Positions 4,279 through 26,780 of a stretch of DNA of 26,780 nt are shown here, one piece after another (the stretch's first letter is position 1; the number at the start of each line of letters is the position of its first letter). The translations under genes and the position numbers were made by a program. Source of the DNA: a virus; the IMG/VR virus record IMGVR_UViG_3300023116_000284, positions 1 through 26,780 of that record; one strand, given 5' to 3'. Under the pieces are notes generated by a model that saw only the letters and a list, made by a program, of their open reading frames with translations, had not been told where the DNA came from and ran no database searches.

Positions 4279-5847
4279 TTAGAATTCCAGGATAATTTTA
4301 ACGTCTTCTTTTTGTCTAGAATTTCTTGAAATCTCTGGGCGGTTATCAAGATAAATTACATCCCCTGACCCTTTATTTATCTCAGGTGATGATAAACCAC
4401 TTACAAATTCTGAACCAAGAGAAATGGTTTTACTTCCCAGTGTAAGTGTACTGCCAGTAAATGCTACACTTACTTGTTGACTAAAACTTGGTCCGTTGAT
4501 TGGTTTTGTTGATGATTGAAATTCATAAAGTTGACCTTCAGAACTGACACCAACATAATCTTCAGTATCATATGATACTTGATTTAAGAAAAGAGACCTA
4601 TCATGAAAATACTTGACAATCTTAGTTTCACTATCAAATGATGCTACATAAGCTTTTGCTTTTCCAATAACACTACCAGAGTTATTGGTCACCTCTTGCT
4701 CTATAACATTTCCAACAGATAATGTTTCTGTCGTAGCATTATCAAATTTAATAGATCCTAATGATGAGAAAGTATTTTGGGAATATAATGATGTTGAGTC
4801 AACTACTGTTGGATTTTTTATAATCCCTATTTGTCCAAAGTTTGAATTAAGTGGGAAATCTTTTGTTGAATCGTCAAATCTAGTGTACATTAAAATTTTA
4901 TCCGCACCTAACTCTTTATAAATGTCATATCCATGACCTTTTGATGGTGGAATAATGGGAATCAAATTTGCCTTTACATCAACACTAGAAGAAATTGAAT
5001 CCAAATCCACCATTCCATAAGTGTATCCACTTCCACCAGAAACAACAGTAACATTACTTATAGTGTTATCATTATCAACAGTGACACTGACTTTTGCTCC
5101 AGAGCCATCACCAACAACATTTAGAGTATATTGTCCAGCACTGTATCCAGACCCAGGATTTTCAATATAAACTTTTTTTATTTGATTTAAATTTACATCT
5201 GAATTTCCATTATCTCTAACTGCTTTAATCTGAGCATTGGTAGTTGTTGACCAATCATTTGGTAAAGTTATATACTCGATAGAATCAAATTTCACAATGT
5301 CACTTGGGGATATTGTAAACAAATACTTCCAAATATATCCATCACCACTAAGACCTGCTTTTGAGGGCTCTAAATCTGTAAATGTTGGTTCATCTACAGA
5401 TTCATTTCCTGTTGGATTTACACTAGAAGCACCGTTATCGATACAAATGTATACTTTGTATTCACTATTGACTACGTAATATTTTGCATCGTAAAGGTTT
5501 AATGCACCTGTTGTTGGTGCAGGATTACTTATATCATAATCATGACGATACATTTCATATACTTCATCTTGTTTCCACTCAACTTTTCTAACTACCCTTC
5601 TAGCATTTTCTGAGGTTACTCTCTTACCATACATCATCACATCACCAACAAAATTTAGATAGTCAAAACTATCTGTTGGGTTGGGTGTATCAGTATCCCA
5701 ATCAGTACTTCTTTGGGGAGAAGCACTTGGACTTTTTGGATTTGAAAGTCCTACAAAAACGTAATATGAATTGGAAGTATCAGTTACCGAGTTTATAAAA
5801 TTTTCAGCGTTTAATATTCTAAACTGATTTGTTACAATTGCCGCCAT
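4279..5847 (-). CDS. gp8: Baseplate wedge protein gp8
   Basis: This 522-residue protein has the N-terminal pattern of T4-family gp8: the chain opens with AAIVTNQFRILNAENFI, then a YYVFVGLSNP strand, and later GDGYIWKYLFTISPSDIVKF near residues 168-187. Gp8 is a dimeric component of the baseplate wedge that binds gp7 and gp10. It is longer than T4 gp8 (about 330 residues). The extra length includes two GSGY-type beta repeats near residues 232 and 272, of the same kind found in the giant upstream protein. The gene sits between that protein and the DUF4815 gene, as in other cyanophages. A perfect TATAAATA late promoter box lies 18 nt before the ATG, so gp8 can start its own late transcript. The ATG has only a weak ribosome binding site. 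The family call is firm; the function of the extra repeats is unknown. Confidence 0.88.
   Translation of the reverse strand: MAAIVTNQFRILNAENFINSVTDTSNSYYVFVGLSNPKSPSASPQRSTDWDTDTPNPTDSFDYLNFVGDVMMYGKRVTSENARRVVRKVEWKQDEVYEMYRHDYDISNPAPTTGALNLYDAKYYVVNSEYKVYICIDNGASSVNPTGNESVDEPTFTDLEPSKAGLSGDGYIWKYLFTISPSDIVKFDSIEYITLPNDWSTTTNAQIKAVRDNGNSDVNLNQIKKVYIENPGSGYSAGQYTLNVVGDGSGAKVSVTVDNDNTISNVTVVSGGSGYTYGMVDLDSISSSVDVKANLIPIIPPSKGHGYDIYKELGADKILMYTRFDDSTKDFPLNSNFGQIGIIKNPTVVDSTSLYSQNTFSSLGSIKFDNATTETLSVGNVIEQEVTNNSGSVIGKAKAYVASFDSETKIVKYFHDRSLFLNQVSYDTEDYVGVSSEGQLYEFQSSTKPINGPSFSQQVSVAFTGSTLTLGSKTISLGSEFVSGLSSPEINKGSGDVIYLDNRPEISRNSRQKEDVKIILEF
4374..4381 (-). promoter_or_regulatory. Candidate internal late promoter for the DUF4815 gene
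   Basis: The minus strand reads GATAAATA inside the 3' end of gp8, 99 nt before the start of the DUF4815 gene. It matches NATAAATA and parallels the box before the giant gene in both sequence and distance. It lies in coding sequence (EINKGSG region), so the call rests on motif and placement only. Confidence 0.4.
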
Positions 5848-17767: not shown

Positions 17768-19624
17768 TTATACCCTCTTTAGTTCTCCGTTTAAGTAGCT
17801 AGAAGTAGTCTTATATCCGACTCCGGATATCTGTTCACCAGAAGTAATAGTATCCTTTATCATATTTATCTTGCTATCAGCAACTGAGAAACTAAGATAA
17901 AGGTCCTTCAGTCCAATAACATCATTTGACTCTGGATATGCCTGAATCTCAATAACGTTATTTTCTTTTTCTGTAGATGTTATATTAATTGTATTGAGTT
18001 TAATCTCACCTTTTACATAATCAACTGTTCCTGCAGATTGTATTTCAACAAAATACTTATCAGCACCAACAGGTTCTCTTACTATGCTCAGCACACCCAT
18101 TCCATCTTCGCCAGGAGTATCTGTGATGTAGAATGTTCCAGTTCTACCGGAAAGAGTGAAACCAGTGCTCTTAATATTAAATCCTTCTTTTACATAACGG
18201 AATGCATTTCCATAACATAATTCATACTGAGCAGACTCATTAATTGCTGCTCTTAGATTTCTTCTAAGAATAACTCTTGTAATATTTGATGTAATTGCAT
18301 TATCAACGTTATCAATTGTTTGACACAACTTACTATACTTAAATCTGCCACCAAACTTATTAATATTTGAAGATGAGAATGTATTCAATGTATTTGTAAT
18401 TGATGTCTTCAAATCATTTGGAGTTGATGCCTGAGATGGGTTATAGTATACTGCAGAGTCAACTTCAACATAAAGAACCTTAAGGTCGATGATTTGTTGA
18501 TTGATGCCAGACAATGAATAATTCTTTAATTTAGAAAGTATTGTTTCCTTGTCAAAGTCAGAAACAAAATCACCATTCTTTGGTTTGATACTAATAATTA
18601 CATTGCCAAATTGTGGAGGATCTAATTCCTCACCACCAACTACAGATACTGATTCAGTATTTGGATAGATTGATTGAATAATTGCCTCATAATCACGGGC
18701 AGTTACTGCTCTATACTGAGATGAATATAGTCTTGGTGCAAAATACTTGATAGATTCAATACTTTCAATATCTCCACCATTAGATGATGCAGTATTTGTT
18801 GTTACAGTGACTGATGTTGGACCTACAATTTGATCTAAAGAACCAACTAAACGTCCAGAGAAGGCAAAATCAGATGCTCCATTACCTTCAACACCGTCAG
18901 TAACGATATAAGTGACCGTAACGACTGCGCCATTGGTCAATTTCTTACCAAAATAACCATCACCAAATAATAATTCATATTTTTCATCCTGAACTTCCTG
19001 AAGAAGATAGATTTCAGAGTCAGAATTTAGGTTAATAATATTATCAACACGTGAATATTCCTTTTCATCAACTTTTACAACGATTGTAGCAGTATCAATG
19101 AAGGAATTATTTAAAATAAATCTCTGATCGAGGGATCCATCAACTACAAAACTGTTTCTAAGTAGTGTGCCCTGGTAAATGTCAATACCAGAGAATGTTG
19201 CAGTGCCAGAAGAAACTACAGTAGTAATACTTTCTGGAATTGAGAAGATGTAATTACTATCTTCAACGGATCCTACGCACACTAGACCCTCCTCTAAGGT
19301 TAGTGTAGGACTACTTGTGTCTGTTACCACGGATAGTGTTATATTTGCCTTAGAGGAGCTCCTGGACCGAGGTACATAACCAATATTTCTTGCCAAAGAT
19401 ACGACGTTTTCCCTCAATGTTGCCGAATCCAAGAAGGATTCGTTGACAATCATATTGGAATTGAATGCCGTAATGTAAGTATTATAGGCAAGAGTGTCGA
19501 TTAAGACAGAAAAGTTAGATCCCTCAAAGTCAAAGTCCGTAAAATTGGAATTTGCCCTGAGATAATCCTTAATTTGTGCTCTTATCTGGTCAAAATCTAG
19601 GTTTGTAAACTTTGTAAAAGGCAT
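17768..19624 (-). CDS. gp6: Baseplate wedge protein gp6 (J-like)
   Basis: This is a 618-residue protein; T4 gp6 has about 660. The N-terminal third has the gp6/baseplate J pattern: FTDFDFEGSNFSVLIDTLAY, then NSNMIVNESFLDSATLRENV and LARNIGYVPRSRSS (about residues 37-108). The middle contains YRAVTARDYEAIIQSIYPN, the region that follows the core in J-like proteins. Gp6 forms the inner ring that joins adjacent wedges in the contractile tail baseplate and holds it together before sheath contraction. The gene starts 1 nt after gp25 and ends 1 nt before the giant structural gene, so the three form one translational cluster. The AGG within the last gp25 codons can serve as its ribosome binding site. 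Near its 3' end it contains a GATAAATA box that may serve the next gene. Confidence 0.92.
   Translation of the reverse strand: MPFTKFTNLDFDQIRAQIKDYLRANSNFTDFDFEGSNFSVLIDTLAYNTYITAFNSNMIVNESFLDSATLRENVVSLARNIGYVPRSRSSSKANITLSVVTDTSSPTLTLEEGLVCVGSVEDSNYIFSIPESITTVVSSGTATFSGIDIYQGTLLRNSFVVDGSLDQRFILNNSFIDTATIVVKVDEKEYSRVDNIINLNSDSEIYLLQEVQDEKYELLFGDGYFGKKLTNGAVVTVTYIVTDGVEGNGASDFAFSGRLVGSLDQIVGPTSVTVTTNTASSNGGDIESIESIKYFAPRLYSSQYRAVTARDYEAIIQSIYPNTESVSVVGGEELDPPQFGNVIISIKPKNGDFVSDFDKETILSKLKNYSLSGINQQIIDLKVLYVEVDSAVYYNPSQASTPNDLKTSITNTLNTFSSSNINKFGGRFKYSKLCQTIDNVDNAITSNITRVILRRNLRAAINESAQYELCYGNAFRYVKEGFNIKSTGFTLSGRTGTFYITDTPGEDGMGVLSIVREPVGADKYFVEIQSAGTVDYVKGEIKLNTINITSTEKENNVIEIQAYPESNDVIGLKDLYLSFSVADSKINMIKDTITSGEQISGVGYKTTSSYLNGELKRV
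17863..17870 (-). promoter_or_regulatory. Candidate internal late promoter for the giant structural gene
   Basis: The minus strand reads GATAAATA inside the 3' end of gp6, 97 nt before the ATG of the 3959-codon gene. It matches the cyanophage late consensus NATAAATA. The same word lies 99 nt before the DUF4815 gene. Being inside coding sequence, it could be chance. Confidence 0.4.
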
Positions 19625-19625
19625 A

Positions 19626-20027
19626 TTACCTGGTTGCCTCTAAGATAAATGTAAATTCTTGAGTCGGAAAGTCCTGACCAATGATATCAAAGATAACATT
19701 ACATTCAAATGTGTTGTCATCAGGTTGTGGATTGACCTGAACCTCAACATTTTCCACTCTTGGCTCAAAATTTTCGATTGTTGTAAGAATTTGGTCCTGA
19801 ATTACACTCGCCGTGCCATAATCAACAAACTCAAAGAGACTTGCTCTTACATCAGACCCTAAAAGAGGTTGAAAAAACCTCTCTGTAGGGATAGTTTCAA
19901 CCAAATTTCTTACAGAACGACGAATTGCATTCTCATTTTTAAGAATAGGTAGGTCTTTTGTCACCGGATGAGGGTCAAAAGACAAACTAATGTCCTTAAA
20001 TGCTCTTGATATCCGAGTGACTGCCAT
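19626..20027 (-). CDS. gp25: Baseplate wedge protein gp25 (GPW/gp25 family)
   Basis: This 133-residue protein matches the T4 gp25 size (132). It shows the family layout: an opening strand SRAFKDISLSFDPHPVTKDL, then LKNENAIRRSVRNLVETIPT and ERFFQPLLGSDVRASLFEF, followed by an alternating strand pair with VEVQVNPQPDDNTFECNVIF. Gp25 is the conserved inner wedge protein that contacts gp6 and primes sheath polymerisation. Despite its lysozyme-like name it is structural. It is the first gene of the gp25-gp6-giant gene cluster and lies 23 nt below a CATAAATA late promoter box. The ATG has no strong Shine-Dalgarno sequence. Confidence 0.93.
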   Translation of the reverse strand: MAVTRISRAFKDISLSFDPHPVTKDLPILKNENAIRRSVRNLVETIPTERFFQPLLGSDVRASLFEFVDYGTASVIQDQILTTIENFEPRVENVEVQVNPQPDDNTFECNVIFDIIGQDFPTQEFTFILEATR

Positions 20028-21929: not shown

Positions 21930-22550
21930 TCAACCCAGCAACTCAGAGAGCACAGTGTTACCCTCACCCAGAAGGATTTCAGTGGGGAGAGGAACGAATT
22001 GCAGATACTTTGCAGCAGGTTTGATGATACCCATTTGCGTCAGGATGCAATCTTCCTCACCCACAATCAGTTGCAGTTGAGAGAACGAATCCTTACGTCC
22101 AGAGGATGCATTCCACACGTTAGATTCGGTCAGGTTAGTGTCAATCAGCACCATGCCGAAAGTATCAATCTGATTGTCGTTGAAAGTGTACTTAATGCTC
22201 CACACAAGGTTAGTTTTAGCACCCCCAAAGTGGGAGGTTTTGTTACCCGTAGCAAAGGAGGATTTAGAGGCACCTCCCATTAACTTAAACTCAACAGGTT
22301 GCCCTTCGATGATGTAATCGTAACCAGCAACTTCTTCACGTTTGCCATCAATGCCCAGGGTCTTAATGCCTGCTTCGATTACCTCATTCACAATGTATTG
22401 GAAGATCTTTGTGAAGTCTGCAGTCTCCATGCCACCGTCTTTGATCTGTTGCAGAGTCTTACCATAAAGACGGAACTCCTCTGCAACATAGCGGTTGGTC
22501 TCTTTGATGACGTAGGAGGTCAGGATCTCAAGAGTGTTGGTCAGGGTCAT
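21930..22550 (-). CDS. Putative PD-(D/E)XK nuclease-like protein, 206 aa
   Basis: Residues 1-70 look helical (TSYVIKETNRYVAEEF and KIFQYIVNEVIEAGIKTLGI). GYDYIIEGQPVEFK at 76-89 has the spacing of a PD-(D/E)XK nuclease core, with D78, E87 and K89 as candidate catalytic residues and E57 or E59 as a possible helix acid. A polar loop (GGASKSSFATGNKTSHFGG, 92-110) and a long sheet (LVWSIKYTF, FGMVLIDTNL) follow, as in type II restriction-like folds. It could therefore cut DNA or be an inactive relative. No methyltransferase is adjacent. It lies at the start of a GC-richer stretch, has its own TATAAT promoter and ends in a hairpin. A generic hypothetical protein is the alternative; the nuclease call is inference from one motif. 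Confidence 0.6.
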   Translation of the reverse strand: MTLTNTLEILTSYVIKETNRYVAEEFRLYGKTLQQIKDGGMETADFTKIFQYIVNEVIEAGIKTLGIDGKREEVAGYDYIIEGQPVEFKLMGGASKSSFATGNKTSHFGGAKTNLVWSIKYTFNDNQIDTFGMVLIDTNLTESNVWNASSGRKDSFSQLQLIVGEEDCILTQMGIIKPAAKYLQFVPLPTEILLGEGNTVLSELLG

Positions 22551-22566
22551 GAGTCGGAAGAGTGGT

Positions 22567-22585
22567 GGAGGGTCCGTTGCCCTCC
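22567..22585 (-). repeat. Leader hairpin of the nuclease-like gene
   Basis: A perfect 6-bp stem GGAGGG/CCCTCC with a 7-nt loop lies in the leader, between the -10 box and the ATG at 22550. The arm nearest the start (CCCTCC) is anti-Shine-Dalgarno-like and the distal arm (GGAGGG) Shine-Dalgarno-like. It could influence translation. Confidence 0.4.
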
Positions 22586-22595
22586 GATGTGTTTA

Positions 22596-22601
22596 ATTAT
22601 A
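22596..22601 (-). promoter_or_regulatory. TATAAT -10 box for the nuclease-like gene
   Basis: The minus strand has a perfect TATAAT 46 nt before the ATG. A CCGACA word about 19 nt further upstream is a fair -35 match with long spacing. This suggests sigma70-type, likely early, transcription. Confidence 0.5.
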
Positions 22602-22648
22602 GGGCATTGAGGTGGCACCCTGTCGGATGTGTACCACCTGTCAGATTG

Positions 22649-22876
22649 TCACAGGTCTGCCATCATGTCGTTGATTTCGATTCCGTCGATTGCGGGGTCA
22701 TCCCAGCGGCAACCGTCTGGGGTCTCTTTGCTGCCACACTCACGGAGCATGGAAACCAGGTCCTGATACGTGCGGCACTCTTTGGCGGCACCATACAGAC
22801 CCTCATCGTTCTGAATCCAGAGGGCAACGTTCCAGGTCGCCCAGTTTGCCCATCCGTTGAAAGTGGTTGCGGTCAT
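22649..22876 (-). CDS. Small conserved hypothetical protein with NGWxNxxTWNVALW motif, 75 aa
   Basis: I chose the ATG at 22876 over one 14 codons upstream (22918), because the extra residues are rich in Arg, Thr and Pro and unlike the body. The product then begins MTATTFNGWANWATWNVALW and continues IQNDEGLYGAAKECRTYQDL. The W-rich N-terminus is the kind seen in small proteins shared by cyanobacteria and their phages. The second half is acidic (DDPAIDGIEINDMMADL). The function is unknown to me. It has no membrane segment. No Shine-Dalgarno sequence precedes either ATG. The gene lies in the GC-richer stretch, and its codons end in G or C far more often than those of the structural genes. Confidence 0.7.
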   Translation of the reverse strand: MTATTFNGWANWATWNVALWIQNDEGLYGAAKECRTYQDLVSMLRECGSKETPDGCRWDDPAIDGIEINDMMADL

Positions 22877-22918
22877 GTCGTTTGTGGTTGTTGAGAGTAT
22901 TCTACAGGGTCGCCGCAC

Positions 22919-23104
22919 TCAGTCACGGTCGGAGATGTGCCAGCGTCCCCACTGTCCCTGAGGTCGGGTTGCTTCCCACTTGGCAAACCATGCCTGAGGG
23001 TCAGCAGCGGCAGCATCACGGATTGCCTGACGACGGCGATTCTCAGCGATGACCTGCTGAGTGTAGTCTGCCATGATGGCATTGAGGTCGGGTGTTTTCT
23101 TCAT
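22919..23104 (-). CDS. Small helical hypothetical protein, 61 aa
   Basis: The product starts MKKTPDLNAIMADYTQQVIA, forms a charged helix (ENRRRQAIRDAAAADPQAWF) and ends with a Trp-rich tail (KWEATRPQGQWGRWHISDRD). I do not recognise the family. The frame has clear amino-acid bias, and the ATG at 23104 sits just below a perfect TATAAT, which supports this start. It belongs to the GC-richer group of genes. Another frame over the same span (22873-23082) is also open but has poorer composition and no promoter fit. Confidence 0.6.
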   Translation of the reverse strand: MKKTPDLNAIMADYTQQVIAENRRRQAIRDAAAADPQAWFAKWEATRPQGQWGRWHISDRD

Positions 23105-23110
23105 GTCATC

Positions 23111-23116
23111 ATTATA
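23111..23116 (-). promoter_or_regulatory. TATAAT -10 box directly before the 61-aa gene
   Basis: The minus strand reads TATAAT followed by GATGAC and then the ATG. With usual spacing, transcription would begin at or next to the A of the ATG, giving a leaderless mRNA. The -35 region (CCGAAA) is weak. Confidence 0.4.
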
Positions 23117-23236
23117 AGCACGGGGTCGGACGGTTTCGGGGTATGAGTGGACAGTCTGAAAAGTGGCACACGGTCCGGGATAGGTGGGGGGAGCGTGCTA
23201 GGATGAAGGTAGACTCTCCGGTAAAAAAGAAAGTAT

Positions 23237-23264
23237 AAAAAAAGGGAGGCAATGTGCCCCCCTT
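23237..23264 (-). terminator. Intrinsic terminator of the 119-aa gene
   Basis: On the minus strand AAGGGGGGCA and TGCCTCCCTT form a 10-bp stem (one G-U pair, 3-nt loop) followed by a run of seven T residues. It starts 9 nt after the stop codon. The connecting sequence from stop to stem is the same 12 nt as after the nuclease-like gene. Confidence 0.85.
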
Positions 23265-23273
23265 AAGTATAAC

Positions 23274-23633
23274 TCAGACCAGCAGGTCAGTTGTAGCAAG
23301 GGCACCAAGTCTCATGCCATTACGAAACTCAGTGGTGAAGAACTCAGTGCCATTGTATAAACGAATGAACCAATTGAAGTCCTTTTGAAATACACCCTCA
23401 CCAGGGATTCCATGCTCCGAAAGAATAGCATTGAGACGGGACTTGGTAGTGTTAGATTGCCAACCACCATCAAATAGACGGATGTAATCATCACCCACGT
23501 CTGCAATGTGGTTGCCGTGCAGATACACTTTAGACTCGTTAGTATCAGCATCAAACTCTACACGAGTGTTGGCAGACTGCCAGTCAGCATTGTTGCTGAT
23601 AGCATCATTCATCTGGGTTTCGATCTTACGCAT
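23274..23633 (-). CDS. Conserved cyanobacterial/cyanophage hypothetical protein, 119 aa
   Basis: I chose the ATG at 23633 (product starts MRKIETQMNDAISNNADWQS). An upstream ATG at 23684 would place the sigma70 promoter inside the gene. The body alternates strands and turns: NTRVEFDADTNESKVYLHGN, then TKSRLNAILSEHGIPGEGVF (a helix and loop), then QKDFNWFIRLYNGTEFFTTE. This resembles small proteins of cyanobacteria and their phages of unknown function; there are no cysteines, signal peptide or membrane segments. The gene is a complete single unit with its own promoter and terminator. Its last codons, including the LL-x end, resemble those of the nuclease-like gene as part of a shared 3' cassette. 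Confidence 0.7.
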   Translation of the reverse strand: MRKIETQMNDAISNNADWQSANTRVEFDADTNESKVYLHGNHIADVGDDYIRLFDGGWQSNTTKSRLNAILSEHGIPGEGVFQKDFNWFIRLYNGTEFFTTEFRNGMRLGALATTDLLV

Positions 23634-23656
23634 GAGAGGTGAGGTCGTTTGACTTG

Positions 23657-23684
23657 AGAATAGAATAGACGATGATGGGGTCAA
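23657..23684 (-). promoter_or_regulatory. Sigma70-like promoter for the 119-aa gene
   Basis: On the minus strand TTGACC (23679-23684) and TATTCT (23657-23662) are 16 nt apart. The start of transcription falls about 15 nt before the ATG at 23633. This placement supports the shorter coding start. Confidence 0.55.
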
Positions 23685-23714
23685 TGGGGAGAATGGTGGA
23701 CACTCCCCCGACTG

Positions 23715-23897
23715 TCACACCAGGAAGGTGGAAGGGTCGCCGTAGTCTCCGACGATGTTGCCGAAGGCATCACGGATCTCAGCATACCCGAACTCCTCTG
23801 ACAGGTCCAGGCAAAGCAGCATGGCACGGTCCAGGTCCGTGGTGGTTTCGTTCTCCTCAGGAGCAGAGGGGCAGATGATGTCGTAGGTGTTTGTCAT
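23715..23897 (-). CDS. Small acidic hypothetical protein, 60 aa
   Basis: The ATG at 23897 is preferred to one at 23972, because the extra 25 residues (Cys, Pro, His-rich) do not look like folded protein and overlap an inverted repeat. The product starts MTNTYDIICPSAPEENETTT, has a helix DLDRAMLLCLDLSEEFGYAE and ends in IRDAFGNIVGDYGDPSTFLV. The final part resembles a short beta hairpin. The function is unknown. It lies at the upstream end of the GC-rich gene group. No clear Shine-Dalgarno sequence is present. Confidence 0.6.
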   Translation of the reverse strand: MTNTYDIICPSAPEENETTTDLDRAMLLCLDLSEEFGYAEIRDAFGNIVGDYGDPSTFLV

Positions 23898-23938
23898 GCA
23901 GTAATGATGCCACGGATCCAGGGGGTGTGGGGCACTTA

Positions 23939-23972
23939 GTGGACACCTAACGAACTGGCACAAGGTGTCCAC
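23939..23972. repeat. 10-bp perfect inverted repeat upstream of the 60-aa gene
   Basis: The arms GTGGACACCT (23939-23948) and AGGTGTCCAC (23963-23972) are separated by 14 nt. Located about 42-75 nt before the ATG at 23897, it could be an operator or an mRNA leader stem. No T run follows it. Confidence 0.5.
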
Positions 23973-24170
23973 AGTGGGGGTCTGGGGGTCTTACAATACG
24001 TGCACAACCGAAGGAGGGGCGGGGTAGCCCTGATGATGACAAACGTCGTCACTGCTCCCGCGATAAAATAATTTTAGTTTGCTACGATACCAATACGAAT
24101 TCGTATCATAAAAGTATAATACTATGAATTCGTATTGATATAACGATGTGACACTAATCAAAGTGGCACA
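23973..24170. other. Non-coding region with nested palindromes
   Basis: I see no gene. The left half is GC-rich (CCCCGCCCCTCC on the minus strand). The right half turns sharply AT-rich and contains the EcoRI-centred palindromes at 24091-24137. Confidence 0.5.
24091..24137. repeat. Nested inverted repeats centred on GAATTC
   Basis: CAATACGAATTC (24091-24102) and GAATTCGTATTG (24126-24137) form a perfect 12-bp inverted repeat. The left arm is part of a perfect 14-bp palindrome, ATACGAATTCGTAT (24093-24106). The interval contains another odd palindrome, AGTATAATACT. It lies downstream of the 51-residue ORF. Confidence 0.6.
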
Positions 24171-24326
24171 TTATATCTCCATTTCAAATTCTTTTATGTT
24201 AATGTTAATATCTTCGTCACTATGGAGGTGTAACAAATCTCTCCAATTTAGATCTTGTAGATCTAAATCATCATAACACATGATGTCTAGTGTTATACTT
24301 ACTAGGCGCTTGTTATGTGTTAGCAT
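24171..24326 (-). CDS. Small acidic hypothetical protein, 51 aa
   Basis: The ORF runs from ATG at 24326 to TAA at 24171. The product starts MLTHNKRLVSITLDIMCYDD and continues LDLQDLNWRDLLHLHSDEDI, ending NINIKEFEMEI. The acidic 'DLxWRDLLxLxxDEDI-x-I-x-IKEFE' pattern looks like a folded small protein and is typical of tiny cyanophage proteins. Translation might instead start at the internal ATG (residue 16, position 24281), giving 36 residues. No Shine-Dalgarno sequence precedes either. It lies 30 nt after the 54-residue ORF and could be co-transcribed from the late promoter at 24609. The function is unknown. Confidence 0.55.
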   Translation of the reverse strand: MLTHNKRLVSITLDIMCYDDLDLQDLNWRDLLHLHSDEDININIKEFEMEI

Positions 24327-24356
24327 GATGGGTGCATATGTGTGTGCTAGATCGTA

Positions 24357-24521
24357 TCACGCATAATGCCTATACGCAAGTGCGTCAAGATCTTGCGTAT
24401 TATGTGCATAGTCCTCGTCGAGTTCTTGTACGTCGAGTTGTGCATGATACTCGTAGTACGTATCCTCGTCGAGATTATAATCGTTTCCAAACGTATAGTC
24501 GAGATCGTAATCGTCGTACAT
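24357..24521 (-). CDS. Tiny very acidic Asp/Tyr-rich protein, 54 aa
   Basis: The ORF runs from ATG at 24521 to TGA at 24357. The product starts MYDDYDLDYTFGNDYNLDED and ends ALAYRHYA, with repeated LDED/LDE units. Almost a quarter of the residues are Asp and nearly a fifth are Tyr. Such composition could mimic DNA or RNA (as small phage anti-restriction and inhibitor proteins do), but this is speculation. Codons are unusual for this genome: Leu-Asp-Glu is written CTC-GAC-GAG, which creates repeated palindromes. A perfect TATAAATA box lies 88 nt upstream, and a 12-bp inverted repeat occupies the leader. The opposite strand is also open across this span, but its product would be a biased hydrophobic string, as expected of an antisense frame. 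Confidence 0.5.
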   Translation of the reverse strand: MYDDYDLDYTFGNDYNLDEDTYYEYHAQLDVQELDEDYAHNTQDLDALAYRHYA

Positions 24522-24525
24522 AAGT

Positions 24526-24596
24526 CTCGTCGAGATCTGATGGTTACTTGGATATTATATCACGAATCTCGACGGAAATCAACGGATCTCGACGAG
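24526..24596 (-). repeat. 12-bp inverted repeat in the leader of the acidic ORF
   Basis: CTCGTCGAGATC (24526-24537) and GATCTCGACGAG (24585-24596) are perfect reverse complements 47 nt apart. One arm ends 4 nt before the ATG at 24521, so a fold would cover the ribosome binding area. Each arm also contains the odd palindrome CTCGTCGAG or CTCGACGAG, repeated in the ORF. Confidence 0.6.
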
Positions 24597-24608
24597 TTTC
24601 ATAACCAT

Positions 24609-24616
24609 TATTTATA
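24609..24616 (-). promoter_or_regulatory. Late promoter motif for the 54- and 51-aa ORFs
   Basis: The minus strand has a perfect TATAAATA. It lies outside any gene, upstream of two small ORFs and the leader inverted repeat, so its placement is more convincing than copies inside coding sequence. Confidence 0.6.
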
Positions 24617-24930
24617 AGTTCTCGACTAGATTTTTGTGGGTCTCCTGACATTTTCGCAGGGGAGCAACTTGACAAACTGTGCGTCTTTGTGCTAACGTGC
24701 TAAACTTGCATAAGGAGGTGACCTTTCTATAAGGTTTTAGAAGGGTTTTAGTGGAGTTTTTATAAGGTTTTAGAGGGGTTTTAGTGGAGTTTTTATAAGG
24801 ATTAGGAGAGGATTAGAAGGGTTTTAGAAGGGTATTATGATACGATTTCTTATCATTATCCAGTCTTATTATGAATACTTATTGAGACACATAAGAAAGC
24901 AATTTATATTAAAAAACATATTTAATTAAT
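24617..24930. other. Non-coding region with repeats and no gene
   Basis: No credible ORF is present on either strand. It contains an imperfect stem near 24642-24664 (CTCCTG and CAGGGGAG), a plus-strand TAAGGAGGTGACC word at 24710-24722, the 11-bp repeat array, and plain AT-rich sequence from 24842 to the terminator. Confidence 0.5.
24733..24841. repeat. 11-bp periodic repeat array (about ten units; 33-bp higher-order unit)
   Basis: The plus strand can be cut into successive 11-mers: GGTTTTAGAAG, GGTTTTAGTGG, AGTTTTTATAA, GGTTTTAGAGG, GGTTTTAGTGG, AGTTTTTATAA, GGATTAGGAGA, GGATTAGAAG (10), GGTTTTAGAAG, GGTATTATGAT. The first six form two nearly identical 33-bp blocks (24728-24760 and 24761-24793 in a shifted frame, one difference). 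T-runs recur near the helical repeat. It is not coding, because stops occur in every frame. Confidence 0.8.
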
Positions 24931-24952
24931 AAAAAACCCCTAAAAAGGGGTT
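24931..24952 (-). terminator. Intrinsic terminator of the small-gene operon
   Basis: On the minus strand AACCCC and GGGGTT form a 6-bp stem around a short T-rich loop, followed by a T run (TTTTATT). It lies 24 nt after the stop of the 63-residue gene and ends the operon that enters from the right edge. Confidence 0.82.
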
Positions 24953-24975
24953 AAAAAGAGTATAAAATTGTTTTT

Positions 24976-25167
24976 TTAGGGTATAAGAGTTTTACTCTGT
25001 GCAGTTGGTCCTAATCCTGTCTTAGGGTTAATCAGAAACCTTTGAGGTGATGGATTAGGTTTTCCATCCTTAGTCTTCAATGGTGGCATTATTCTATAAG
25101 GTGCAAGACTTCTTATATTATTACTAGATGCTTCTACTTCAGTAATAAACTCTTGAAATGTTTTCAC
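24976..25167 (-). CDS. Small protein with KTFQEFITE N-terminus, 63 aa
   Basis: The frame starts at a GTG (25167) and the product opens MKTFQEFITEVEASSNNIRS. The 'K-T/S-F-x-x-F-I-x-E' opening recurs at the N-terminus of many unrelated-looking T4-like marine phage proteins, which supports this start despite the GTG and weak ribosome binding site. The rest is Pro/Lys-rich with little predicted structure (PPLKTKDGKPNPSPQRFLIN, then PKTGLGPTAQSKTLIP). A late promoter word AATAAATA lies 26 nt upstream, inside the preceding gene, suggesting late expression. A virion-associated role is possible. It is the last gene before the terminator. Confidence 0.65.
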   Translation of the reverse strand: MKTFQEFITEVEASSNNIRSLAPYRIMPPLKTKDGKPNPSPQRFLINPKTGLGPTAQSKTLIP

Positions 25168-25179
25168 TGTTGGTGTTGA

Positions 25180-25428
25180 TTACTTCTCATCATATTTATT
25201 TGCTCTTGACTTAATGTATTGTAGTTGATGATAATACTCTGGGAAACACAATACTAATGTATGAGTCTTATGATGTATTGGACAATGTTGTATATCTTCT
25301 TTATCCTTACACCTTACTCCAATCTCAATCGTTATGTATTGTGAGTCCTTATAATACACCCATCCTTCTACTGAATGTTTTTCTTTATTCCACCTTACAT
25401 AATCATCTACACTGGGGTCATAAGGCAT
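25180..25428 (-). CDS. Conserved T4-like cyanophage hypothetical protein, 82 aa
   Basis: The product starts MPYDPSVDDYVRWNKEKHSV, then EGWVYYKDSQYITIEIGVRC, then a CPIHHKTHTLVLCFPEYYHQ stretch. It is a compact beta-rich protein of a type common in T4-like cyanophages. The Cys and His residues at 39, 48, 51 and 52 could bind a metal, but the pattern is not a standard zinc motif. The function is unknown. Its start overlaps the 3' end of the upstream frame by 22 nt, and its stop lies 12 nt before the next gene, so it is part of the operon. Its last codons carry a late promoter word for the downstream gene. Confidence 0.75.
   Translation of the reverse strand: MPYDPSVDDYVRWNKEKHSVEGWVYYKDSQYITIEIGVRCKDKEDIQHCPIHHKTHTLVLCFPEYYHQLQYIKSRANKYDEK
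25193..25200 (-). promoter_or_regulatory. Candidate late promoter for the KTFQEF gene
   Basis: The minus strand reads AATAAATA, matching NATAAATA, 26 nt before the GTG start at 25167. It lies within the last codons of the 82-residue gene. Position favours function; composition alone could also produce it. Confidence 0.45.
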
Positions 25429-25654
25429 TGCATTAAAGGATTAAGATTTAAGGGCATAGAAGTATAAGGAGATGTATCGTTAATCTCTACTACATCTCCT
25501 ATTGTTTTAGAATTGATTGGGGCATGGAATTGTTTTGTTTTGGTGTTATAGAATCCCCAGATGGTATAAGTTGAAGCACCACCATTATAGACAAACCTAC
25601 GATGACAATGCAACCAGATACTAATAAAAAGGCGATTGTGCTTTCTTGACTCAT
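25407..25654 (-). pseudogene. Probable single small membrane-anchored gene split by a -1 frameshift
   Basis: Two overlapping frames look like halves of one protein. From ATG at 25654 the product opens MSQESTIAFLLVSGCIVIVG with one membrane helix (about residues 7-29), but that frame then drifts into polar sequence and stops at 25499. The -1 frame, open to 25407, becomes protein-like from about 25600 (VYNGGASTYTIWGFYNTKTK, then QFHAPINSKTIGDVVEINDT, then SPYTSMPLNLNP) but has no start codon of its own nearby. Joined near 25590-25600 they would give about 82 residues: an N-terminal anchor and a small soluble beta domain. Explanations are a sequencing indel, a real mutation, or recoding. The function is unknown. 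Confidence 0.5.
25499..25654 (-). CDS. Small single-pass membrane protein as read without frameshift, 51 aa
   Basis: This is the intact ORF that contains the membrane helix described for 25407-25654. As it stands the product is 51 residues: a short polar N-terminus, a helix rich in Val, Ile and Leu (about residues 7-31), and a polar tail (PSGDSITPKQNNSMPQSILK). It starts 20 nt after the upstream gene's stop. If the downstream frame is a separate or frameshifted part, this may be only the N-terminal half of the real product. I cannot tell which from sequence alone. Confidence 0.45.
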   Translation of the reverse strand: MSQESTIAFLLVSGCIVIVGLSIMVVLQLIPSGDSITPKQNNSMPQSILKQ

Positions 25655-25674
25655 AACTATAATTCTTTGGTGGT

Positions 25675-25839
25675 TTATGGGGTATCAGGCACAGCACGGA
25701 GTCGGTTGGGATTGTATCCTTCTGCAAGCAATTCTTCAAGTCGTTTTTTTGCTTGCTCTTTTGTAAGTTTGACATCACTAGCAAAAGTTACGTTCCAATC
25801 ATTAGTGCACAATTCTTCGATGCGATATAAAGTTTCCAT
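25675..25839 (-). CDS. Conserved small cyanophage protein, 54 aa
   Basis: The ORF runs from ATG at 25839 to TAA at 25675. The product starts METLYRIEELCTNDWNVTFA, followed by a helix (DVKLTKEQAKKRLEELLAEG) and YNPNRLRAVPDTP. The 'KLTKEQxxxRLEELLAEGYNPNRLRA' core is typical of a very common tiny T4-like cyanophage protein of unknown function. It starts 6 nt after the preceding gene stops. It explains the N-terminal half of a longer overlapping frame (up to 25784), which is only a shadow here. Confidence 0.8.
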   Translation of the reverse strand: METLYRIEELCTNDWNVTFASDVKLTKEQAKKRLEELLAEGYNPNRLRAVPDTP

Positions 25840-25845
25840 AGTTGT

Positions 25846-26076
25846 TTAAGTTGTAAAAGAATCAATAATACCACTCTCATATTCATCCTTGAGAGTAAAC
25901 TTCTGAGCACTGACAACATTAGACATAATTAAATGATTATACTCATCATCATACGTTTGTTCATCAGCAAGAATTGTAAATGCCTCAGTGTCATTCTCTG
26001 CAATCAGATTAATTACACCTCCATACTCAGAAGAAGGAAATGGCACCCAGTAGTCAACAATGTATAAAGATTTCAT
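25846..26076 (-). CDS. Conserved small cyanophage protein, 76 aa
   Basis: The product starts MKSLYIVDYWVPFPSSEYGG, then VINLIAENDTEAFTILADEQ, and ends with an acidic tail (LKDEYESGIIDSFTT). The beta-alpha-beta feel and the 'YWVPFPSSEYGG' stretch are familiar from T4-like cyanophages. No enzymatic motif is visible. The start overlaps the upstream gene's stop in an ATGA arrangement, which indicates coupled translation. The function is unknown. Confidence 0.8.
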   Translation of the reverse strand: MKSLYIVDYWVPFPSSEYGGVINLIAENDTEAFTILADEQTYDDEYNHLIMSNVVSAQKFTLKDEYESGIIDSFTT

Positions 26077-26270
26077 TCTTGGTTTGGTGTTTGCTCAGTA
26101 AGTTTATCATATTTAGATGTCTGAGTCAACTGTATCTGACGCTCTAACTCATACTTAATTCCATATAACTTTCCACACATATAATTCTCATACACATTTC
26201 CTTTGAGTAACTTAATCATATTGTGTGTTTGCATTAATGCCAGATGGAGTTTTACTTCTTCAGTCATCAT
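26073..26270 (-). CDS. Small helical hypothetical protein, 65 aa
   Basis: The product is mostly helical and charged: MMTEEVKLHLALMQTHNMIK, then LLKGNVYENYMCGKLYGIKY, then ELERQIQLTQTSKYDKLTEQ. Heptad-like spacing of Leu and Ile in the first helix suggests self-association. No known domain is recognised. It overlaps both neighbours by 4 nt (ATGA type), so it is translated in step with them. Confidence 0.72.
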   Translation of the reverse strand: MMTEEVKLHLALMQTHNMIKLLKGNVYENYMCGKLYGIKYELERQIQLTQTSKYDKLTEQTPNQE

Positions 26271-26491
26271 AGAAACTCTGACATATAATAATCAACAGTA
26301 ACCTCTAACTCTGCTGCTCTCTGCTCATAGATATTCCCAATCTCTTCCTGTACATCATCACCATGCTTCCTCCTATAAACAGTTCTACCACCATCTGGTG
26401 ATTCATACACATACTTACTCATCTCCATGTCAGCATGTTTCATAAAATCCTCAAATGCATTGCAAAACTGTCGGATGTCCTCTTCATTCAT
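26267..26491 (-). CDS. Small acidic hypothetical protein, 74 aa
   Basis: The product starts MNEEDIRQFCNAFEDFMKHA, has a charged middle (YESPDGGRTVYRRKHGDDVQ) and ends with a helix (EEIGNIYEQRAAELEVTVDY). It is soluble and acidic, with no known domain. A very strong AAGGAGATAT site 7 nt before the ATG fixes the start. It overlaps the next gene by 4 nt. Confidence 0.75.
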   Translation of the reverse strand: MNEEDIRQFCNAFEDFMKHADMEMSKYVYESPDGGRTVYRRKHGDDVQEEIGNIYEQRAAELEVTVDYYMSEFL

Positions 26492-26503
26492 ATTAATATC
26501 TCC

Positions 26504-26701
26504 TTAGTTGATAAGAGTAAAGTTAGGAGCCCACATAACTTCATAACTACCCTCCTCTTGTTCTGCAACTATCCACTCCTCATACTCTTCATAAAGAGCA
26601 AGACAGTTGTTCTCTTCCTCAACCTCTGCAAAACTTTGACAAAGTGCAAAAATATGCTCCATTTGTCCGTGAACCATTTCGATGCGTTGCTCGTCAGTCA
26701 C
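26504..26701 (-). CDS. Small acidic hypothetical protein with GTG start, 65 aa
   Basis: The frame starts at a GTG (26701), with AAGGGAG about 9 nt upstream, which supports the non-ATG start. The product begins MTDEQRIEMVHGQMEHIFAL and has a Glu-rich middle (CQSFAEVEEENNCLALYEEY) ending in APNFTLIN. It is probably helical and strongly acidic; the function is unknown. It overlaps the stop of the upstream reading frame by 8 nt and is followed 12 nt later by the next gene. Confidence 0.7.
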   Translation of the reverse strand: MTDEQRIEMVHGQMEHIFALCQSFAEVEEENNCLALYEEYEEWIVAEQEEGSYEVMWAPNFTLIN

Positions 26702-26780
26702 TGAAAGTGTCTCCCTTGTGTGGTTGAATGTATTGTAGCAAGAATGGAGGCAGTGTCAGTATTTCAAGTTGATTGTTCAT
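26694..26780 (-). CDS. End of an upstream small gene, or a 28-aa ORF (edge)
   Basis: The frame is open from the right edge to TGA at 26694. The window's last three bases happen to form an ATG, so the visible 28 residues (MNNQLEILTLPPFLLQYIQP, then HKGDTFSD) may be complete or the tail of a longer gene. The stop overlaps the next GTG start, which fits operon packing. Confidence 0.4.
   Translation of the reverse strand: MNNQLEILTLPPFLLQYIQPHKGDTFSD

Follow-up and report, generated by a model that had tools for sequence, protein, structure and literature searches.

The window, that is the whole stretch of DNA that was analysed (26,780 bp), is a record of a T4-like cyanophage, a group that is among the most abundant viruses of the ocean. 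The baseplate genes gp25 (19626-20027), gp6 (17768-19624) and gp8 (4279-5847) are located on its minus strand, together with an ORF of 3,959 aa that takes the position of gp7. To the right of these genes lies a conserved non-coding element of about 770 bp (24171-24935), the middle part of which is a helically phased array of repeats. Many T4-like viruses infecting cyanobacteria of the sea and of fresh water share this element. From left to right, the following order was found: a 51-aa ORF on the minus strand, CTCGWCGAG palindromes, a sigma70-like core on the plus strand, the array, a box block, an AT-rich tract and convergent genes.

The 51-aa ORF (24171..24326, minus strand) matches PHROG 12516 (E 6e-11). 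By tblastn it was detected in S-SKS1, S-SRM01 and S-T4 and in 29 viral contigs. The matches adjoin the core in 78 loci, and every locus whose left flank reaches 600 bp or more has one. The encoded protein is acidic and conserved, and its ORF accompanies the element in nearly every locus. Neither a Pfam nor a PDB relative was found, and no similarity to RepEA or RepEB of T4 was detected. PSSM2_098, the ORF annotated left of the P-SSM2 core, was also considered as a relative; it matched only four loci, overlaps the palindromes and is probably not a real one.

Four copies of CTCGWCGAG are present at 24414, 24465, 24526 and 24588 (24414..24596), a count that none of 100 shuffles reached. The motif occurs in 77 of 79 relatives, on average 4.2 times in the 450 bp on the left. 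For four genomes that are complete or large, the copies beside the core represent 6/6, 2/2, 1/1 and 5/11 of all copies. Judging from the sequence, the palindromes are likely protein-binding sites. A consensus scan located among them a sigma70-like promoter directed toward the 51-aa ORF (24554..24582, minus strand; TTGATT-17-TATAAT with an extended -10), and S-SKS1 displays TTGACA-17-TATAAT at the same place.

The core (24669..24714, plus strand) is a sigma70-like promoter, TTGACA-18-TAACGT, with an extended -10 and the conserved initial transcribed sequence CTAAACTTGCATAAG. Together with its relatives it follows the pattern TTGACA-17/18-TAnnnT with TG ahead of the -10, which by sequence corresponds to an early sigma70-type promoter. 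Beyond the array (24724..24837, plus strand), the box block (24838..24887) consists of the palindrome-type module GATACGATTTCTTATCATT and of CTTATTGAGA. The AT-rich tract TTTATATTAAAAAACATATTTAATTAATAAAAAA (24888..24935) is a candidate unwinding element, based on its stability and on the relatives. A terminator-like hairpin (24935..24952, minus strand), placed for the minus-strand genes coming from the right, was detected by pattern scan and may insulate the element.

A second conserved intergenic stretch, GGGGCGGGGTAGCCCTGATGATGACAA...CCCGCGATAAAATAATT, was noticed at 23990-24090 of the window. An intergenic stretch in DSL-LC03 matches it with 75% identity over 85 bp, and a similar text is present left of the P-SSM2 core. 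The stretch of the window gave no Rfam match.

Periodicity and curvature of the array

The initial annotation had described a row of about ten 11-mers with a 33-bp higher-order block in a non-coding region, and the analysis confirmed this with small corrections. TRF reported a period of 11 with 9.6 copies (24733-24837) and a period of 33 with 2.3 copies and 95% match (24724-24800), so the larger block begins somewhat earlier than had been described. Compared with dinucleotide-preserving shuffles, the autocorrelation was 0.63 at lag 11 (0.32 in shuffles, z 6.6) and 0.74 at lag 33 (z 8.2), and the spectral peak was at 10.9 bp. The roughly ten units are of the TTTTAG, TTTATAAG and GATTAG types. 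Two minus-strand genes flank the array, and no gene-like ORF covers 24724-24837. The plus strand of the array is nearly free of C (3% C at +46 to +146).

In order to compare the array among viruses, a set of 85 non-redundant relatives and 84 control stretches was used. The best lag was 10 or 11 in 68 of the 85 relative arrays and in 11 of the 84 controls; this per-locus count is fairer than z-scores over the set, which overstate independence because the loci are akin. The lag profile of the relatives has peaks at 10, 11, 20, 22 and 33 and troughs at 5 and 15-16. Their common spectral peak was found at 11.0 bp, in support of the phasing with the DNA helix that had been proposed. A loss of the period among relatives, which would have spoken against the initial annotation, was not observed. 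The unit sequences vary, including TTTATAAG, TTTTAGAG, GACTCAGAGG, CACAAGACC and others. The conserved property of the array is its period of about 11 bp and not the sequence of its unit. A comparison of unit number, which had been suggested as a check, revealed arrays from nearly nothing to about 300 bp in length. This suggests that the array may not be essential.

Curved DNA had also been predicted from the repeats. A wedge model was applied with the parameters of Bolshoy et al. (1991). In the window, the ratio of contour to end-to-end distance of the array was 1.49 vs 1.10 +/- 0.06 in shuffles (p about 0.002), and the array and the adjacent AT segment were the most curved 105-bp pieces. Among the relatives, the predicted curvature exceeded that of shuffles at p<0.05 in 18%. 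The prediction is therefore strong for the window and weak for its relatives, and curvature itself is probably not what is conserved.

Box block and AT-rich tract

Four types of box were distinguished between the array and the AT-rich tract. TTCTCAA/TTGAGAA boxes are present in 34 of the 85 relatives, the palindrome of the window type in 17, at least two forward DnaA-type boxes in nine and an AGTATCT-type block in eight; none of the four was observed in 17 relatives. No locus carries two types, and the types are exchanged at one position.

The spacing of the DnaA boxes is mostly 11-12 or 20-21 bp across loci. In DSL-LC03 (172.8 kb), seven of the 13 exact TTWTCCACA boxes lie within 457 bp around the core, and in S-SKS1 three of nine fall in a 51-bp stretch directly downstream of the array. 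The core model missed, or nearly missed, S-PM2, S-SM2 and Syn9, yet their tightest box clusters (19,231-19,264, 58,064-58,093 and 52,565-52,597, respectively) are found at the same map position. P-TIM68 likewise has a pair of DnaA boxes at this map position (58.2 kb), at a distance of 2.1 kb from gp25. In six genomes two exact boxes come within 60 bp of each other, and in all six they do so only 2-9 kb upstream of gp25. In the window, no DnaA box was found near the array.

The AT-rich tract of the window is among the top 0.3% of its least stable 60-bp pieces, and the tract is conserved in the relatives with a median AT content of 0.87. In five genomes, the tract adjoining the boxes ranks within the top 0.01-3% genome-wide. 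Clustered DnaA boxes accompanied by an AT-rich tract were observed in S-SKS1, DSL-LC03, S-SM2, Syn9 and S-PM2 and in nine contigs. S-PM2 carries a further array, of the AAATCTTAAGAAATCTT type and with periods of 17 and 34 bp, at 19,459-19,613, just upstream of the promoter and the DnaA boxes.

Distribution and map position

A blastn search revealed homologous regions in S-SKS1, S-SRM01 and S-T4, and a blastn search with the core matched P-SSM2 and P-SSM5. At least 120 stretches of viral contigs matched a degenerate core pattern, and a sequence model built from the core alignment detected S-SKS1, S-SRM01, P-SSM2, DSL-LC03 and three large contigs. Altogether, more than 100 viral contigs carry the core, as do S-SKS1, S-SRM01, S-T4, P-SSM2 and DSL-LC03. 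An independent route gave the same picture: where the flank was sufficient, contigs retrieved through the 51-aa ORF have either this core or a diverged form of it, usually with an array. The core model matched the S-T4 record MH412654 twice, at 2,960 and 174,529 (171,569 bp apart), which suggests that a terminal duplication of about 9.5 kb was left uncollapsed in the record. In effect, the core is single-copy per genome.

Diverged versions of the element are present in S-SM2 and Syn9, and probably also in S-PM2. S-SM2 combines the core TTGACA-17-TAGAAT with CCCAGACACATT, two DnaA boxes, the AT-rich tract and a homologue of the 51-aa ORF. Syn9 retains a core remnant inside the annotated gp87; the match to the core model is weak (E 0.02) and was accepted because DnaA boxes follow at the right place. 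In S-PM2, a TTGACA promoter is accompanied by an AT-rich tract and three boxes. The small ORFs annotated over the element and its DnaA boxes, gp86/gp87 of Syn9 (52,477-52,797) and SSM2_086 of S-SM2 (57,997-58,101), are probably not genes. The core model and the box search found no counterpart in P-SSM4, S-CAM7, S-SSM7, S-RSM4, S-CRM01 and S-H9-1.

In S-SKS1, S-SRM01 and P-SSM2, every nearby annotated gene on both sides reads against the core, which is therefore not an obvious mRNA promoter. Of 70 contigs, 48 have a first right-hand ORF directed against the core. A GIY-YIG endonuclease-like ORF is inserted right of the core instead in at least 14 relatives (L083, L119, L106, L038, L114, L149, L123, L064, L086, L098, L078, L074, L144 and L152). 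These ORFs share the strand of the core and are inserted 200-350 bp to the right of its start, and the genes further out are on the opposite strand. By analogy with segC beside T4 oriE, they may be homing beside a conserved site.

The element lies upstream of gp25-6-7-8 in every isolate having it, and the core points away from these genes. The distance to gp25 is 4.6 kb in the window, 5.2 in S-T4, 6.7 in P-SSM2, 7.5 in DSL-LC03, 8.1 in a contig (G001), 8.7 in S-SKS1, 10.4 in S-SRM01, about 2.9 in S-SM2, 5.7 in Syn9 and about 7.5 in S-PM2. On the genome maps, the core lies at 151.3 kb in S-SKS1 and at 65.9 kb in P-SSM2. An RNA started at the core would be antisense to its neighbours and run away from gene 6.

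A candidate replication origin

Replication, packaging and promoter control had been offered as functions of the array, and the first of them fits best. Given the conserved promoter, the phased array, the boxes, the AT-rich tract, the single copy, the antisense orientation and the map position of oriE, a replication origin is the best reading. On sequence grounds, it is likely that many T4-like cyanophages (Kyanoviridae) use the element as their main origin of replication, with the array as the iteron-like part of that origin. In the literature searched, only predictions were found of where and how replication starts in these phages, namely a single theta origin in Syn9 (Weigele et al. 2007, as cited in the review PMC2984593). 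This prediction concerns the same phage group and likewise gives one origin per genome. No report of a cyanophage origin with an R-loop, DnaA boxes or non-coding repeats was found in the mostly open-access literature that was searched.

The closest known layout is that of T4 oriE. The initial view that the array matches no standard phage element is only partly right, since oriE likewise has a promoter with iterons of about 12 nt at this map position. According to the T4 record (NC_000866), oriE is located at 79,355 in the (-) strand direction, and its primer RNA is the complement of the gene 5 transcript. It is upstream of genes 6-7-8 by 1.7 kb and is directed away from this group. RepEA, repEB and the GIY-YIG gene segC lie beside it. 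According to the review PMC3016281, oriE has an early promoter and 12-nt repeats at even spacing. The cyanophage element shares an early promoter (predicted by sequence), repeats of similar length, the position upstream of genes 6-7-8, an antisense RNA predicted to run away from gene 6, and the neighbouring GIY-YIG gene. In contrast, the T4 repeats are within the coding sequence of gene 5, whereas the cyanophage array is non-coding. RepEA and RepEB have no relative in the cyanophage element, and no DnaA-box cluster is described at oriE in the record or in the sections consulted of PMC3016281. By analogy the element may work like oriE, and it is not filed as a proven member of that class. A phage origin of this layout is known; the non-coding 11-bp array, the exchangeable box module and the host DnaA boxes of some lineages are new to the literature searched.

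At T4 oriF and oriG, a promoter is followed by an A+T-rich unwinding element (PMC3016281, sections consulted), as in the cyanophages. However, those origins use a MotA-dependent middle promoter and motA is absent from cyanophages (PMC2984593), while the cyanophage core has a TTGACA -35 and an extended -10. DnaA-dependent origins such as oriC and iteron plasmids resemble the element of S-SKS1, DSL-LC03, S-SM2, Syn9, S-PM2 and nine contigs in their TTWTCCACA clusters at helical spacing beside an AT-rich tract. They differ in that the element also has a strong outward promoter and the 11-bp array, and in that many lineages, the window among them, carry other boxes.

In the mechanism that we propose, host RNA polymerase would start at the sigma70-like core early in infection and make a non-coding RNA that crosses the array, enters the AT-rich tract and is antisense to the genes nearby. 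The phased array and the adjoining box block would keep an initiator on a single face of the helix. This would be host DnaA in some lineages, through the boxes mostly 11-12 or 20-21 bp apart, and another protein in others, including that of the window. Transcription and initiator would jointly open the AT-rich tract, where the core RNA could prime the leading strand and the T4-type replisome would be loaded.

Several further properties were evaluated with regard to the origin. The maximum of the detrended GC skew in P-SSM2 lies 214 bp from the core. The local skew step exceeded the 96th percentile in four of eight genomes, S-SKS1, Syn9 and S-SM2 not being among them, and gene content confounds this measure. 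GC skew was accordingly discarded as proof of an origin. The stability of the RNA:DNA hybrid over the array is ordinary (81st percentile) and thus lends no special support to R-loops. An R-loop favoured by the C-free strand was also rejected, the GC skew of 0.83 in the window vs a mean of 0.05 in relatives being a peculiarity of the window. A T4-like packaging site was dismissed as well, with the terminase genes about 40 kb away in P-SSM2.

It is unlikely that the locus is instead a gene for a regulatory non-coding RNA, made early, with a 5' row of 11-nt protein- or ribosome-binding motifs, and titrating a host factor or silencing the neighbours in antisense. Such a gene would fit a strong, conserved promoter that leads into no sense gene, as well as the AGG/GGAG motifs in the array units, and S-PM2 does make at least one antisense RNA, CfrI (PMC2984593). 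However, the period of the DNA helix is kept while the unit sequence is not, and the structure of the array transcript is not significant in the window (z -1.2). An Rfam search of 22,500-26,780 returned only sub-threshold chance matches, and clusters of DnaA boxes with an AT-rich tract are not expected in an RNA gene.

The element could also be the control region of the divergent 51-aa ORF, in which array and palindromes act as operators and curved DNA modulates the promoter; this we regard as improbable. The linkage of ORF and core in essentially every locus and the palindromes around the promoter facing the ORF speak for it. On the other hand, another promoter of opposite direction stands between the array and the ORF promoter, which are over 140 bp apart. 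Moreover, the DSL-LC03 homologue of the ORF is 12.6 kb away, whereas core, boxes and AT-rich tract are still together there.

A purely architectural role of intrinsically curved DNA, in nucleoid folding, packaging or as a recombination hotspot, agrees with the window having its most curved pieces here. It is very improbable in view of the weak curvature of the relatives and of a map position not near the terminase genes. Least credible is a selfish or neutral repeat expansion without function beside a promoter: unit number and sequence do vary greatly across relatives, but diverged arrays keep a period near 11 bp far above control, and the array always has the same core on one side and the same box/AT block on the other.

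Returning to the replication origin, a more specific form of it can be put forward tentatively. The fixed core and the phased array may constitute a single origin with an exchangeable initiator, into which lineages plug boxes either for host DnaA or for a phage initiator. If so, control of initiation would pass from host type to phage type by the swap of a module of about 50 bp, and a putative phage initiator would assemble along one face of the array.

The element provides a precise, testable candidate site in many isolates, and suggests that the layout of T4 oriE is common to very distant T4 relatives. The DnaA boxes point to recruitment of the host initiator by several lineages, which is outside the picture of T4 given in the consulted sections of PMC3016281. 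The array also bears on the T4 'iterons', the role of which is recorded there as ill defined. In T4 itself (NC_000866), the repeats beside oriE in gene 5 (79,426-79,540) show a 24-bp period, and the repeated structure of the protein may explain them rather than replication.
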